From positions 1-64,000 of the forward strand of contig JAFMJI010000002.1 in the NCBI GenBank assembly GCA_017853575.1: a stretch of 64,000 nucleotides of DNA, read 5' to 3'. The notes beneath the pieces were generated by a model, which searched no databases, was not told where the DNA came from, and saw only the letters and a list, made by a program, of their open reading frames with translations. The DNA comes from Chitinophagaceae bacterium. GTDB taxonomy: Bacteria > Bacteroidota > Bacteroidia > Chitinophagales > Chitinophagaceae. The translations under genes were made by a program, and so were the position numbers. Shown one piece after another: positions 41,290-48,588 of the stretch. Positions within the stretch are counted from its first letter, which is position 1, and each line of letters starts with the position of its first letter.

Positions 41290-41397
41290 TTCACTATTGT
41301 CATTCAATTGTAAAAAAAACATTGCTCCACTTTTTCTGACATTTTCATGATAATGCTTCTTTCAAGTTGCTAGAATTTCGTGCCCGATTTCAAAGGC

Positions 41398-43473
41398 ATG
41401 TGGAGTAGATTTCTTATCATTTTTTTCATCCCTTTTCAACTTTTCTCTCAACAATCGAGGGACTCATTGAATCCAACCCAGTTGGATGAGGTAGTGGTTA
41501 CTGCTACTCGAACACCCAGAACAATGGGAAATCTTGCTATTCCAGTTTCAATCGTTGGTTCCAAAACTCTTTATCAGAGCGGATCACTGAGACTCAATGA
41601 TATTTTATCTGAGCAAACCGGACTAATGATCACAGATAATTTTGGAAAGGGAATTCAGATGCAGGGACTATCCTCTGAATACACGTTGATCCTTTTAGAC
41701 GGTGAACCTCTTATTGGAAGAACGGGTGGTGTGTTGGATCTTTCACGTATTACCATTCGAAATATCCGCAAAATTGAAATCATCAAAGGCCCCTCTTCCA
41801 GTCTATATGGTTCAGAAGCGATGGGAGGAGTAATTAATATTATAACCGACAGAGCTGGTCAGAACAAACTAGATGGAAGTTTACGATATGCAAGATTTAG
41901 TACGGCTGATGGATCGATCAACTTTTCAAAAAAATTCAATCAGGCAGATCTTCAATTTTCATCAAACTACAATCGATCTGAAGGATATAGTTTAAAGCCG
42001 TTTGCGCTACAAAAAACAGTTGAACCTTTTTGGAAGTCAGTACAGCAATTGAGCTATAACCAGATTCTGTCTTCTCATTGGAAAGCCGGTGCTGGTATAC
42101 GTTTCAACAATACGCATATTGACAATAGTATTTCAGTTCAAAATCTTGGGAATACCATTCTGTCAAAAGGTTTTGAAAAGAATGGTGAATTCAACCTCAC
42201 TCCTTATGTTCAATATCAAGTTGATCAAAAAATAAAATCTGTATTAAGGGGCTATGTAACCGGTTTTAATGCAGTACAAAAGCTGGAAGTAAAAGATGCA
42301 TATGGTTCTTACAATGATGCTTTCAAACAACTTTTTGCCCGACTCGAACAACAAACGGATATCCATCCATCCAAATTTTCTACACTAACACTTGGTGGCG
42401 GATTGATAAAAGAGGAAGTGAGTTCAAACCGATATGACAGTCTTTCAACTGTAAGAAAAAATCAAATTGCTTATATATTTGCACAACATGAACAGTTGAT
42501 TTCAGATAAGCTAACAATCATTGGCGGAGCAAGATTTGATGCAAATAAAGCGTATGCATCAGTGATGAGTCCTAAGCTTTCACTTCAATACAAAATTGAT
42601 TCATATTGGTCTTTCAATCTTTCATATGGAAGAGGATTTAAAGCGCCTGATTTCAGGCAATTGTATTTGAATTTTACCAACCTGGCAGCAGGTGCCTACT
42701 CTGTGTTTGGAACAGAAGTGGCAGTTCCTGAGATAAAACGAATGTCAACTGCTGGATTGCTGGAGCAGACGACCGACATGTATTCTAGGCTTTCTGCTTT
42801 AAAACCTGAAACTTCAGGAGGGTTAAACATCGGATTCAAATACCAGCACTCAAATCATATCAATGCAAACTTGAATCTTTTCAGAAATGACCTATCTAAT
42901 ATGATTGTAACTGACATCATCGCGTATAAAAAAAGTGGTGGACAGGTATATAGTTATTTCAATTTAAAAAGTGCATTGACGCAAGGTGCGGAGTTGAATG
43001 TGTCTAAACAACTTTCCAAAAAAATACATATCCAAAGCGGATATCAATATTTATTTACAGCTGATAAAGAAGTGTTGAATGCTATCAAAAATGGTATGGT
43101 TTATCAACGAAATCAAACTACCAATCTTGTAACCAGAATGAAAATAAGTGATTATGGCGGACTCTCTTTCAGGTCTAGACATAGTGCCAATCTCAAAGCA
43201 TATTATGAGAATGCAAAAGGCTTTTTTGCAACATCAAGACTAATATATCGTGGCAGATGGGGAACAACTGATTTGGATGGAAATGGATTGATTAATCGTT
43301 CTGATGAATATGCAAAAGGCTATCTGCAATTGAATTGCAGTGCTGGAATCCAACTGAATAGTAATTGGAAGTTTATGACTGGCGTCGACAATATTTTCAA
43401 TTACAAGGACATATACAATTTGCCCGGAAACCCAGGTAGGGTGGGCTATTTAGACATACAATTTAATTTCTAA
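41398..43473 (+). CDS. TonB-dependent receptor, HmuR-like
   Basis: 691 aa from ATG 41398 (signal peptide MWSRFLIIFFIPFQLFSQ); a GTG at 41380 also opens the frame but lies too close to a possible -7 element. Plug: LDEVVVTATRTPRTMGN, LLDGEPLIGRTGGVLDLSRI, IIKGPSSSLYGSEAMGGVINIITD. The barrel has GRGFKAPDFRQLYLNF and a later LKPETSGG, as in haem receptors. It lies between an AraC regulator and an HmuY-like lipoprotein, the usual haem-uptake layout in Bacteroidota. The ligand is probably haem, but a different iron compound is possible. Confidence 0.88.
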   Translation: MWSRFLIIFFIPFQLFSQQSRDSLNPTQLDEVVVTATRTPRTMGNLAIPVSIVGSKTLYQSGSLRLNDILSEQTGLMITDNFGKGIQMQGLSSEYTLILLDGEPLIGRTGGVLDLSRITIRNIRKIEIIKGPSSSLYGSEAMGGVINIITDRAGQNKLDGSLRYARFSTADGSINFSKKFNQADLQFSSNYNRSEGYSLKPFALQKTVEPFWKSVQQLSYNQILSSHWKAGAGIRFNNTHIDNSISVQNLGNTILSKGFEKNGEFNLTPYVQYQVDQKIKSVLRGYVTGFNAVQKLEVKDAYGSYNDAFKQLFARLEQQTDIHPSKFSTLTLGGGLIKEEVSSNRYDSLSTVRKNQIAYIFAQHEQLISDKLTIIGGARFDANKAYASVMSPKLSLQYKIDSYWSFNLSYGRGFKAPDFRQLYLNFTNLAAGAYSVFGTEVAVPEIKRMSTAGLLEQTTDMYSRLSALKPETSGGLNIGFKYQHSNHINANLNLFRNDLSNMIVTDIIAYKKSGGQVYSYFNLKSALTQGAELNVSKQLSKKIHIQSGYQYLFTADKEVLNAIKNGMVYQRNQTTNLVTRMKISDYGGLSFRSRHSANLKAYYENAKGFFATSRLIYRGRWGTTDLDGNGLINRSDEYAKGYLQLNCSAGIQLNSNWKFMTGVDNIFNYKDIYNLPGNPGRVGYLDIQFNF

Positions 43474-43492
43474 CATATAAAACCAAGTGAAA

Positions 43493-44140
43493 ATGAAAAA
43501 GTCAAATGTTATTGCACTCGTGTTACTGTCTACTGTGTTTTTTTATGCTTGCACCAAAGATGAAAATACATCTGGTACAAATACTACACTTACTCAAAAT
43601 GTGGTAAAAGATTTAATGGCTGATACCATTGTTGGATTGTCAAATGGTCAACCGGTAGGTGCTGGTAAGTTTACTTTCTACAGTCTTGAAAGCAATGCAA
43701 TTGTTGCATCTACAGATTCAAATTCAACAAAGTGGGATCTGGCATTTAGAGGCACTACCATTTTAACCAATGCAGGAACAAGTGGACCTGGAGCGGGAGG
43801 TGCATTTATCTACAATGGAACTTTCGATGAATTGAAAACAGTACCCGTTGATTCAGTAATCAAAAAAGACAATTACCCTACTTCCTATGCGATTACAACA
43901 GGAAGCAACAAGGGCTGGTATGTATATGATGGTGTAAACAATTTGATCACTCCCATCCCTGGAAGGGTCTTGGTGATCAAAACAGCAAAAGGCAATTATG
44001 CGAAAGTTGAAATCATCAATTATTATAAAGGAGGTACAACTCCAGCACCGAGCGCAGCTGACGATATAAAATTGAAAACCCAGCGATTTTATACGTTCAG
44101 ATATGTCCATCAGGCCAAGGGTACTGCCAGTTTTCAGTAA
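43493..44140 (+). CDS. HmuY-like haem-binding lipoprotein
   Basis: 215 aa from ATG 43493. Lipobox FFYAC (Cys20) after a short hydrophobic signal. The body matches the HmuY family: STKWDLAFRGTTILTN, GAFIYNGTFDEL, NKGWYVYDG.NLITPIPGRVLVIKTAKGNYAKVEIINYYKG and RFYTFRY at the end. HmuY in Porphyromonas takes haem and passes it to HmuR. The mature protein here has only one histidine (near residue 207) and one methionine, so the known bis-His or bis-Met ligation is not possible as such. Confidence 0.88.
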   Translation: MKKSNVIALVLLSTVFFYACTKDENTSGTNTTLTQNVVKDLMADTIVGLSNGQPVGAGKFTFYSLESNAIVASTDSNSTKWDLAFRGTTILTNAGTSGPGAGGAFIYNGTFDELKTVPVDSVIKKDNYPTSYAITTGSNKGWYVYDGVNNLITPIPGRVLVIKTAKGNYAKVEIINYYKGGTTPAPSAADDIKLKTQRFYTFRYVHQAKGTASFQ

Positions 44141-44153
44141 GGTGGAGTTTTTC

Positions 44154-44161
44154 TACCTTTG
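44154..44161 (+). promoter_or_regulatory. -7 promoter element of ileS
   Basis: TACCTTTG matches TAnnTTTG; ATG 44171 begins 10 bases after its last base. The same eight bases precede gpsA, only 4 bases from its ATG. Supports the start at 44171 rather than TTG 44159. Confidence 0.6.
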
Positions 44162-44170
44162 CAGCCTTCT

Positions 44171-47100
44171 ATGACACAAGGCTCCTACAAAGAATTCGAC
44201 CAACTCAACCTTCCTGCTTTCGAAAAAGAAATGCTGGAAAGTTGGAGTAGAGAAGATGCTTTTGGTGAAAGCATCCGCAACAGAGAGGGTTCCAAACCAT
44301 TCGTTTTTTACGAGGGTCCCCCCAGTGCCAATGGTATGCCTGGCATCCACCATGTTATTTCAAGAACTTTGAAAGACATGGTTTGCCGATATAAAACCAT
44401 GAAGGGATTTCAGGTAAAACGAAAAGGTGGATGGGATACACATGGGCTACCCGTTGAGCTTGGAGTGGAAAAAGAACTGGGAATCACGAAAGAAGATATC
44501 GGAAAGAAGATCAGTGTTGCTGAATACAACCAAAAGTGCCGCGAAGCAGTCTTAAGATATAAAGACAAGTGGGATGAAATCACTACCAAGATGGGTTATT
44601 GGGTTGATCTTAAACACCCTTATGTAACATTTGAAAACAATTATATTGAAACACTGTGGTGGTGTTTGAAAAGGCTTTATGAAAAAGGATATTTATATGA
44701 AAGTGTAAGTATTCAACCATATTCGCCAGCTGCAGGAACTGGATTGAGTTCACATGAATTAAATCAACCCGGTACATATAAAGATGTTAAAGATACCTCT
44801 GCAGTTGCCCTTTTCAAGTTGTCTCAACTAAAAAACAAAGCGCATAAAGTATTTCAAAAAATAAATACTGCCTCAGATCAAAGTGATGCTGTTTTTTTCA
44901 TGGCATGGACAACAACTCCGTGGACGCTACCATCCAACCTTGGACTCACTGTAGGTTCGAATATTGAATATTCGTTGATAAAAACGTTTAATCCTTATAC
45001 TGCTGATCATCAATATGTAATTCTTGCCAGCGCATTGGTTGGAAAATATTTTAAGGATGATTCAGCGGCGATTGATTTTGAAGCATTCAAAGCAGGCGAT
45101 AAGCTAATTCCATGGAAGTTGATGCAAACCTTTACCGGAGAGGCTTTGGCAGGTTTGTACTATGATCAGCTTTTGCCATTTGTGGCGAATAGCATGGATT
45201 CTATACTTGATATAACACCTGATGCTGATCCTTTCAAAGTGGTCGTAGGAGATTTTGTTACAACTGAAGATGGTACAGGAATTGTACATACTGCACCTGC
45301 ATTTGGAGCAGACGACTTTAAAGTAGGAAAGAAAAATAATTTAGGCATACTGACTTTGGTGGATAGGGAAGGCAAGTTCGTTGAAGGTGTCGGACCATAC
45401 AGCAACAGGTTTGTAAAGAATTACAAAAATGATGAGCAGTATGTTGATGTGAATGTTGACATCTGTGTTCAACTGAAGAAAGAGGGAAAAGCCTTCAAGG
45501 TTGAAAAGTATGAACACAATTATCCGCATTGCTGGAGAACCGACAAGCCCATATTGTATTATCCATTGGATGCATGGTTTATCAAGACTACTGCATGCAA
45601 AGACAGGATGGTTGCTTTAAATAAAACCATTAATTGGAAACCTAAATCTACCGGTGATGGAAGATTTGGGAATTGGTTGGAAAACATGGTCGACTGGAAT
45701 TTAAGTCGAAGCAGATATTGGGGAACACCTCTACCCATTTGGAGGACAGAGGATGGAGCTGAAGAAATCTGTATTGGTTCGATTGATGAATTGAAAGCAC
45801 AAATTCAACAAGCACATGATGTGTTGGGTTCAGGTATCAATGAAAAGTTTATCAAAGAAGGATTGAATGATCTTCATAAACCATATGTAGATGAAATCAT
45901 TTTAGTCAGTGCATCCGGAAAGCCCATGAAAAGAGTTCCTGATTTGGTGGATGTGTGGTTTGATAGCGGGGCAATGCCTTATGCTCAATGGCATTATCCA
46001 TTTGAAAACAAATCATTGATTGAAAAAGGAGATGCTTTTCCTGCTGATTTCATAGCCGAGGGTGTTGATCAAACGCGTGGTTGGTTTTATACATTGCATG
46101 CATTAGGTGTGTTGTTATTCGATAAGGTTGCCTACAAAACAGTTGTTTCCAATGGATTGGTGTTGGATAAGAATGGCAACAAAATGAGTAAGCGCCTTGG
46201 CAATGTTGTTGATCCATTTCAAACCATCGATACATTTGGTGCAGACGCAACACGTTGGTATCTCATTACCAATGCATCCCCTTGGGATAATTTAAAATTT
46301 GATTTGGAGGGCATCAAAGAAGTACAGCGAAAATTCTTTGGCACATTATACAACACCTATCAGTTTTTTGCATTGTATGCAAATGTGGATGGTTTTGCAT
46401 ACAAGGAAGTCGATATACCATATCATGAGAGGCCAGAGTTGGATAGATGGATCCTTTCCAGTTTACAAAGTCTTATTAAAGATGTAAACAAGCATTTGGA
46501 TGATTACGAGCCAACCATGGCTGGCAGAGCCATTGATGAGTTTGTTGATGAGTTGCTGAGCAACTGGTATGTGCGATTGTCGAGAAGACGGTTTTGGAAA
46601 GGAGATTACGGTACAGATAAGATAAGTGCTTATCAAACACTTTATCAGTGTATGATTACTATTGTGAAACTTGCGGCACCGATTTCACCATTTTTCACGG
46701 ATTATTTATTCCGAAACCTGAATGAAGTCTCTCAAAAAGAAAAAGTTGCATCTGTGCATCATACCTATTTCCCATCTGCAAATGAATCATGGATTGATTT
46801 GAAGTTGGAGGAACGAATGCACATGGCAAAAGAATTTTCATCACTGGTGTTGTCAATCAGAAAAAAAGTAAACATCCGTGTTCGTCAGCCTCTGCAGAAA
46901 ATTTTAATTCCTGTTTCTACTTCCTCCATGCAATCACAATTGCAGCAGATCGAAGAATTGATACTCGCGGAAGTGAATGTGAAGGAAGTACAGTATTTGC
47001 CTGCAGACAACGATTTTATCAAAAAGAAAATCAAACCCAATTTTGTCATTTTAGGTAAGAAGTTGGGTGGTAAAATGAAACTGGCTTCAAACGTCATTGC

Positions 47101-47545
47101 TTCCATGCAACAGGAGGCCATCAGAAAATTAGAGGTTGATGGAAATGTTGAAATTGATCTTGAAGGTGAAAAATATGTATTGCATAGAGATGAAGTAGAT
47201 ATTCAAAGCGAAGATGTTGAAGGTTGGATGGTAGCATCCAGAAATGCATTCACGGTTGCGTTGGATGTTCAGGTTACTCCATCCCTAGAGCAGGAAGGAC
47301 ATGCACGTGAGTTGATCAACCGGATTCAGAAAATTCGCAAGGACATCGACTTGCAACTAACGGATAGAATCCTGGTAACCGTTCAATCTCTTCCTGAATT
47401 CGATAATTCGTTTACTCGATTTAATGATTATATTTGCGCCGAAATTTTGGCTGACAAAATCGTGATGGAGGCTGACTTGAGAGATGGATTTGACACCGAA
47501 ATCGATGGTAAATCATTGAAGATCAACGTTATAAAAAAGGACTAA
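44171..47545 (+). CDS. ileS: Isoleucyl-tRNA synthetase, type 2 (IleRS2-like)
   Basis: 1124 aa from ATG 44171; longer than the ~940-aa E. coli enzyme and closer to the eukaryotic type. Catalytic start GPPSANGMPGIHHV has the class I signature as GIHH (residues 58-61) rather than HXGH; GWDTHGLPVE follows. The editing domain lies between about 190 and 400 (MAWTTTPWTLPSNLGL, TEDGTGIVHTAPAFGADD). KMSKR is at 46181-46195 (GNKMSKRLGNVVDP). An anticodon-binding and extended C-terminal region follows without a CxxC zinc motif. It charges tRNA-Ile with isoleucine. The next gene starts 5 bp after the stop. Confidence 0.95.
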   Translation: MTQGSYKEFDQLNLPAFEKEMLESWSREDAFGESIRNREGSKPFVFYEGPPSANGMPGIHHVISRTLKDMVCRYKTMKGFQVKRKGGWDTHGLPVELGVEKELGITKEDIGKKISVAEYNQKCREAVLRYKDKWDEITTKMGYWVDLKHPYVTFENNYIETLWWCLKRLYEKGYLYESVSIQPYSPAAGTGLSSHELNQPGTYKDVKDTSAVALFKLSQLKNKAHKVFQKINTASDQSDAVFFMAWTTTPWTLPSNLGLTVGSNIEYSLIKTFNPYTADHQYVILASALVGKYFKDDSAAIDFEAFKAGDKLIPWKLMQTFTGEALAGLYYDQLLPFVANSMDSILDITPDADPFKVVVGDFVTTEDGTGIVHTAPAFGADDFKVGKKNNLGILTLVDREGKFVEGVGPYSNRFVKNYKNDEQYVDVNVDICVQLKKEGKAFKVEKYEHNYPHCWRTDKPILYYPLDAWFIKTTACKDRMVALNKTINWKPKSTGDGRFGNWLENMVDWNLSRSRYWGTPLPIWRTEDGAEEICIGSIDELKAQIQQAHDVLGSGINEKFIKEGLNDLHKPYVDEIILVSASGKPMKRVPDLVDVWFDSGAMPYAQWHYPFENKSLIEKGDAFPADFIAEGVDQTRGWFYTLHALGVLLFDKVAYKTVVSNGLVLDKNGNKMSKRLGNVVDPFQTIDTFGADATRWYLITNASPWDNLKFDLEGIKEVQRKFFGTLYNTYQFFALYANVDGFAYKEVDIPYHERPELDRWILSSLQSLIKDVNKHLDDYEPTMAGRAIDEFVDELLSNWYVRLSRRRFWKGDYGTDKISAYQTLYQCMITIVKLAAPISPFFTDYLFRNLNEVSQKEKVASVHHTYFPSANESWIDLKLEERMHMAKEFSSLVLSIRKKVNIRVRQPLQKILIPVSTSSMQSQLQQIEELILAEVNVKEVQYLPADNDFIKKKIKPNFVILGKKLGGKMKLASNVIASMQQEAIRKLEVDGNVEIDLEGEKYVLHRDEVDIQSEDVEGWMVASRNAFTVALDVQVTPSLEQEGHARELINRIQKIRKDIDLQLTDRILVTVQSLPEFDNSFTRFNDYICAEILADKIVMEADLRDGFDTEIDGKSLKINVIKKD

Positions 47546-47550
47546 CAGTT

Positions 47551-48588
47551 ATGGCAACAAAAAAACCAGCTCCCAAGAAAGCTGCAAAACCAGTAAAAAA
47601 AGCGAAGCCGGCTCCAAAAAAAGCTGCGCCTGCAAAAAAAGTTGCCGCTTCAAAATCAGCACCCAAGAAAGCAGCACCGGTAAAAAAAGCAGCGAAACCT
47701 GCCCCTAAAAAAGTTGCAAAACCAGCTCCTAAAAAGGCTGCACCTGCAAAAAAGGGAGCAAAAACTGTAGCTGCAAAGCCTGCTCCTAAAAAGGCTGTTC
47801 CAGCAAAAGTTGTAAAACCGGTTGCAAAAAAACAATTGCCAGCTGTAAAGCCTGCTTCAAAAAAGACTGCCGCTGCACCCTTGAAATCAGCACCAACCAA
47901 GCCGTTAGCAGCAAAAGGTGCTAAGCCAGCACCTGGAGCAAAGCCAATGCCAGCTGCTAAACCTGCTGGAAAGAAAGTTCCAACGATCTCACCCGAAACA
48001 AGGTTTGCTGGAACCAGTACCAAGGTTGCTACCCAAGCTGAAATACGCAAGGCATTGAGGGCAAAAGAGGCTAAGAAAAACCTCAAGCCTGTGCCAATGC
48101 CAAAAATTACTACCAAAACTGCACGTAAATACGAACCTGAATTCACCAAGTCTGTTCTAGACTCTAAACAACCGGTTGATCAAACCGGACCTACACAGCG
48201 TTATTCTGATGCTGACTTGGCGGAGTTTCGTGAATTGGTTCAAAATAAACTCAATGCCGCAAAACAAGAATTGGCCTATTTGAACGGTCTGATCACTCGA
48301 AAGGATTCAATGAGCGGAGAAGATTCAGATAACAGATACATGACCATGGAAGACGGAAGTCTCAGCATGGAGCGTGAGCAACTGAGTCAGATGGCTAGCC
48401 GTCAAATCGATTTTATTGAAAAGTTGGAAAAAGCTTTGATACGCATTGAAAACAAAACATATGGTATCTGCCGTGTTACTGGTCGCTTGATCGACAAAGC
48501 ACGTTTGAAAGCTGTTCCTCATGCTACCTTGAGCATGGAAGCAAAGATGGGTATGTCGAAAAACAGTTTCAACAGTTCCAATCAGTAA
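47551..48588 (+). CDS. DksA/TraR-like protein with histone-H1-like N-terminal tail
   Basis: 345 aa. Residues 2 to about 165 are almost only Lys, Ala, Pro and Val in APKKAA / PAKK units, the pattern of histone H1 and of bacterial H1-like DNA-binding tails. Residues ~210-345 are DksA/TraR-like: a helical hairpin (LAEFRELVQNKLNAAKQELAYLNGLI, later QLSQMASRQIDFIEKLEKALIRIE) and the globular YGICRVTGRLIDKARLKAVPHATLS. Only one of the four zinc cysteines of E. coli DksA remains (C307). It probably binds RNA polymerase and/or DNA. It starts 5 bp after ileS. Confidence 0.88.
   Translation: MATKKPAPKKAAKPVKKAKPAPKKAAPAKKVAASKSAPKKAAPVKKAAKPAPKKVAKPAPKKAAPAKKGAKTVAAKPAPKKAVPAKVVKPVAKKQLPAVKPASKKTAAAPLKSAPTKPLAAKGAKPAPGAKPMPAAKPAGKKVPTISPETRFAGTSTKVATQAEIRKALRAKEAKKNLKPVPMPKITTKTARKYEPEFTKSVLDSKQPVDQTGPTQRYSDADLAEFRELVQNKLNAAKQELAYLNGLITRKDSMSGEDSDNRYMTMEDGSLSMEREQLSQMASRQIDFIEKLEKALIRIENKTYGICRVTGRLIDKARLKAVPHATLSMEAKMGMSKNSFNSSNQ

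Follow-up and report, generated by a model that had tools for sequence, protein, structure and literature searches.

In the ileS gene studied here, the class I signature HXGH of isoleucyl-tRNA synthetase (IleRS) is replaced by GIHH, and the question is whether such a swap marks a particular resistance gene or belongs to the normal enzyme of the phylum. The gene comes from a relative of the Chitinophagales, within the phylum Bacteroidota. The motif type was already described in 2023, when Brkic et al. reported a non-canonical G/AXHH signature in type 2 IleRS (IleRS2) and tied it to mupirocin Ki values up to the mM range (PMC10485003; this and the other papers cited are used from the parts of their text that were available). 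According to that study, 86 of 379 analysed IleRS carried G/AXHH, all of them IleRS2 and none IleRS1. In the following, the window is the whole stretch of 64,000 nucleotides that was analysed, and all positions refer to it.

The ileS Gene and Its Signature

The ileS gene is encoded on the forward strand by an open reading frame at 44159-47545. The likely start is the ATG at 44171, which gives a type 2 IleRS of 1124 aa (44171..47545), while the TTG at 44159 would give 1128 aa. The codons GGC ATC CAC CAT at 44342-44353 of the same strand translate to GIHH, which occupies residues 58-61 of the 1124-aa protein (62-65 of the 1128-aa protein) and stands within FYEGPPSANGMPGIHHVISRTLKD. HMMER aligned this motif at the place of HXGH, to PGVHH of the PDB chain 8c8w and to PHVGH of 8c8v, and it fits the G/AXHH pattern (G or A, x, H, H). 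The original prediction of GIHH at residues 58-61 of a protein of about 1124 aa, with the first and third positions of HXGH exchanged, was thus confirmed by the sequence and the alignment. The second class I signature (KMSKS motif) is present as KMSKR (46181..46195, forward strand). The strings WTTTPWTLPSN and GTGIVHTAPAFGADD presumably belong to the editing domain.

Assignment to IleRS2

The gene scored 1008.6 bits with the NCBIfam ileS equivalog model TIGR00392, the cut-off of which is 621.4. Pfam found PF00133, PF08264 and a C-terminal PF19302 (DUF5915) domain without CxxC (46952..47536, forward strand; 182.5 bits, residues 932-1126 of the 1128-aa frame). The top four PDB chains were all forms of Priestia megaterium IleRS2 (803-814 bits), with the GVHH mutant 8c8w first and the wild type 8c8v second, and the homology to these chains spans residues 22-1125 of the window enzyme. 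The wild-type P. megaterium IleRS2 has HVGH and coexists with an IleRS1 in that organism, whereas the window enzyme has GIHH. The IleRS1 chains of P. megaterium scored lower (8c9f, 321 bits; 8c9e, 313 bits).

IleRS1, as in E. coli and P. megaterium, catalyses the same reaction and belongs to the same family, but it has HXGH and a C-terminal zinc motif (PMC10485003, PMC4861432), and the window enzyme has neither. No CxxC, the C-terminal zinc-binding Cys cluster, was found anywhere in its sequence. The string HYPFE, which sets the eukaryote-like IleRS group apart (PMC4861432), is present at 45992..46006 of the forward strand in the context AQWHYPFE. Among relatives this string is variable: a pattern search of 140 loci gave HYPFE in 87, HFPFE in 22, nothing in 13 and other strings in 18, the last of which partly come from other genes. 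Because of the TIGR00392 score, the matches to the Priestia IleRS2 chains, HYPFE and the lack of CxxC, we assigned the window enzyme to IleRS2, and the earlier claim of an IleRS2 type without a C-terminal CxxC is borne out.

Copy Number in the Genome

The genome to which the window belongs has 2.32 Mb in 40 contigs and is 99.62% complete, and all 12 of its ileS candidates were scored. Only one gene passed the TIGR00392 cut-off, the runner-up being an 887-aa frame with 207 bits, and a second ileS in this genome was rejected on this basis. Given the 99.6% completeness of the genome and the lack of a second gene above this threshold, the suggestion that this is the sole, normal housekeeping ileS of the organism held. 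The other matches to the ileS family were frames of 887 aa with HMGH, 928 aa with HVGH, 726 aa with HVGH and 520 aa with SHLGH. From size and motif we take the first three to be ValRS-like, LeuRS-like and MetRS-like, respectively. Since these three frames keep HxGH, the swap is particular to IleRS among the frames examined.

A single ileS was also seen elsewhere in the phylum. In a draw of 118 genomes, all 118 had one gene over the ileS cut-off (in two of them as two pieces of one frame), and the next-best rows listed scored at most 297 bits and were frames of 885-991 aa. These counts rest on two scored candidates per genome in most genomes of the two larger draws (296 and 396 genomes, see below) and on up to seven in the 118-genome draw, so that a weaker second ileS could be missed there.

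Distribution of the Motif in the Phylum

The nearest named relatives of the gene come from metagenome-assembled Chitinophagales and Chitinophagaceae, the closest being 85% identical in its best segment. Among the named relatives (the best 80 of 589 matches), GIHH was found in 78, in 77 of them in the strict context GPPSANGxPGIHH. The remaining two (L041 and L047) start after the motif, which is unreadable in them. In Chitinophaga sp. GbtcB8, the flank is GPSSAYG instead of GPPSANG, with GIHH kept.

Two draws from the phylum and the class (296 and 396 genomes, 636 in all) covered 115 family codes, and an IleRS match was obtained in 295 of the 296 and 392 of the 396 genomes. The five others (G176; G331, G359, G369 and G438) had no TIGR00392 gene over the cut-off; they look like draft gaps, and in G176 a 74-aa IleRS piece lies at a contig end. 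The motif was read in 167 of the 636 genomes, which were picked partly by score and partly as one per family. All 167, the genome of the window included, had GxHH, and they cover all 115 family codes. The forms were GIHH (148), GVHH (16), GLHH (2) and GMHH (1). A GVGH from an antisense frame of locus L128 was left out, the loci L237 and L269 belong to one genome and were counted once, and the piece from G314 begins after the motif and was left unread, while G350 of the same family code was read.

The protein family PF02327 (FMO antenna protein) was found in four of four tested genomes of family code f17 and in none of 11 genomes of other codes, and we therefore took f17 to be the green sulfur bacteria. 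Three loci of this code (L134, L142 and L198) have GVHH. GIHH is found in the IleRS of a 0.49-Mb single-contig genome (G316, locus L267), which is probably that of a symbiont.

The same kind of script read HIGH in the IleRS2 of Paenibacillus cellulosilyticus and HAGH in that of Sutcliffiella horikoshii, both Bacilli, and GIHH in Parabacteroides distasonis and Bacteroides finegoldii, so the reading separates the motif forms. Outside the phylum, Acetoanaerobium noterae (Clostridia) gave GIHH, and GXHH therefore extends beyond the phylum.

These results show that the swap is not peculiar to this gene, as had been supposed at first, because the same motif is found in every one of the phylum genomes read. 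The window gene is the normal IleRS of the phylum and is unremarkable within a group that was already known. That the swap stems from a sequencing error, or that the gene is a degraded copy without activity, is suggested only by the oddity of the motif and is extremely improbable: the 1124-aa frame is intact, the gene is the sole copy, KMSKR is present, and every readable relative has the identical motif class. A sequencing error or pseudogene was rejected on the intact frame and on the motif shared by the readable relatives.

It is also very improbable that a mobile ileS2 of the MupA kind was acquired and displaced a sensitive ileS. MupA, the IleRS2 of staphylococcal plasmids, is of the same family as the window enzyme, with 98% of the length matched; the NCBIfam models for MupA and MupB gave 794.2 and 767.9 bits on the window gene, and IleRS2 genes do occur on plasmids elsewhere. 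However, both scores are far under the curated cut-off of 1900, and the mobile staphylococcal MupA is only 37.7% identical among the matches listed; an acquired MupA-like gene was rejected on the MupA score and this identity. The same gene type was moreover read in all 115 family codes, and the order of ileS followed by dksA/traR is also found in Bacteroides and Parabacteroides. We are confident instead that the window gene is the sole, presumably essential type 2 IleRS with GXHH, likely insensitive to mupirocin, and that it was most likely inherited within the phylum. From the distribution of the motif, we infer that GXHH came down vertically, although its presence in Acetoanaerobium speaks against this.

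Published Effects of the Swap and Predicted Insensitivity

The published link between a GXHH-type swap in IleRS2 and mupirocin hyper-resistance, on which the original prediction relied, is borne out by PMC10485003. The IleRS2 of Deinococcus radiodurans, with ALHH, has a mupirocin Ki of 6.6 mM, and that of Streptomyces griseus, with the "same non-canonical motif", has a Ki in the mM range (PMC10485003). Like the window enzyme, these are type 2 enzymes with positions 1 and 3 swapped that can be housekeeping, but the enzymes with a Ki in the mM range came from Deinococcus and Streptomyces, and the available text gives no kinetics for a member of the Bacteroidota (PMC10485003). GVHH introduced into the Thermus and Priestia IleRS2 raised Ki to 35 and 460 uM, respectively, and GXHH in IleRS1 gave an inactive enzyme (PMC10485003). 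The statement that HXGH had been reinstated in a GXHH enzyme stands in part: a natural IleRS2 was restored to HXGH, but its motif was ALHH (Deinococcus), and the GVHH enzymes were laboratory mutants (PMC10485003). The literature search on GXHH/AXHH found this paper alone. Its main text contains neither "Bacteroidet" nor "Bacteroidota", which covers the text only, as its figures may show the phylum.

In the crystallised Priestia mutant with GVHH, the third His sits at the site of action of the first HXGH His, and modelled mupirocin clashes with it (PMC10485003). By analogy, the third-position His of the window enzyme, with Gly first, would do the catalytic work that falls to the first His in HXGH, and the swap would be tolerated in IleRS2 because the tip of helix alpha-1 is shifted. 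The same His would be expected to clash with bound mupirocin, so that the enzyme could withstand high concentrations.

His582 of the Priestia IleRS2 is the analogue of the IleRS1 Phe that stacks on mupirocin (PMC10485003). By a hand count on the alignment, its place is taken by Leu in the window enzyme, and we therefore believe that the pocket differs and that the effect size of the swap cannot be transferred from Priestia. With a looser pattern, 137 loci gave Leu in 129, His in six and Met in two. Two green sulfur bacteria carrying GVHH have His at this place, which indicates that the residue is not tied to the swap.

Judged by these related enzymes, the window enzyme is likely insensitive to mupirocin, and the resistance of the organism is a prediction. 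A literature search for mupirocin phenotypes of Bacteroidota found no MIC, including in the available parts of PMC9927545, PMC10835994 and PMC11446778.

Retention of the Swapped Motif

The swap looks fixed across the phylum, even in members that would hardly seem to encounter mupirocin. Many Bacteroidota share soil and water with pseudomonads, and this cohabitation, a matter of general knowledge, would favour the view that GXHH is kept because the environment continues to select for resistance against mupirocin or an IleRS inhibitor like it. This view is close to that of Brkic et al., who presumed selection by an environmental antibiotic, and the published Ki effects of the swap also speak for it (PMC10485003). 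We nevertheless consider continuing selection rather unlikely, because the motif is unbroken in the green sulfur bacteria and in the 0.49-Mb genome, in which exposure to mupirocin would seem implausible, and because no reversion was seen in the 167 genomes read, whereas the Deinococcus-Thermus clade has reverted (PMC10485003).

Fixation that extends to the green sulfur bacteria and to a genome of reduced size appears to fit an inherited constraint at least as well as antibiotic selection. We are evenly divided between belief and doubt that GXHH is the entrenched ancestral IleRS state of the whole Bacteroidota, also of the green sulfur bacteria and of members with reduced genomes, and is kept by a constraint within the enzyme and not by mupirocin exposure. 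If such entrenchment were true, drug insensitivity would be a by-product, and one would expect the target enzyme of every member of the phylum to be insensitive. If no member of a whole phylum goes back from the swapped catalytic motif where the drug is absent, mupirocin selection would be insufficient to explain its retention.

The phylum-wide view also guards against recording a housekeeping ileS as an acquired resistance gene. One genome paper on Bacteroidota lists ileS as a mupirocin resistance gene (PMC10835994), and another lists it among resistance genes with the drug unnamed (PMC11446778).

Gene Neighbourhood

Just upstream of ileS, at 41380-44140 of the forward strand, are genes for a TonB-dependent receptor and then an HmuY-like haem-binding protein. 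Directly 3' of ileS lies a gene for a DksA/TraR-like protein (47551-48588, forward strand; PF01258, 28.8 bits). This protein has a Lys/Ala/Pro-rich, histone-H1-like N-terminal tail of about 210 aa, and its finger segment (YGICRVTGRLIDKARLKAVPHATLS) contains one Cys. Among 80 loci with the domain, compared by pattern, most proteins of the Chitinophagaceae type have tails of 130-328 aa with 45-77% K+A+P, with exceptions that have no tail (e.g., L026 and L056). The DksA/TraR proteins of the Flavobacterium type and of two Bacteroidales are tailless and have 125-127 aa.

In plasmid-labelled records of Parabacteroides distasonis and Bacteroides finegoldii (L273 and L274), ileS, dksA/traR and a lipoprotein signal peptidase gene stand in a row, and these records seem to be parts of chromosomes under a wrong label. 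Two further "plasmids", one of 2.6 Mb from Acetoanaerobium (L270) and one of 1.77 Mb from Prevotella, give a similar impression.
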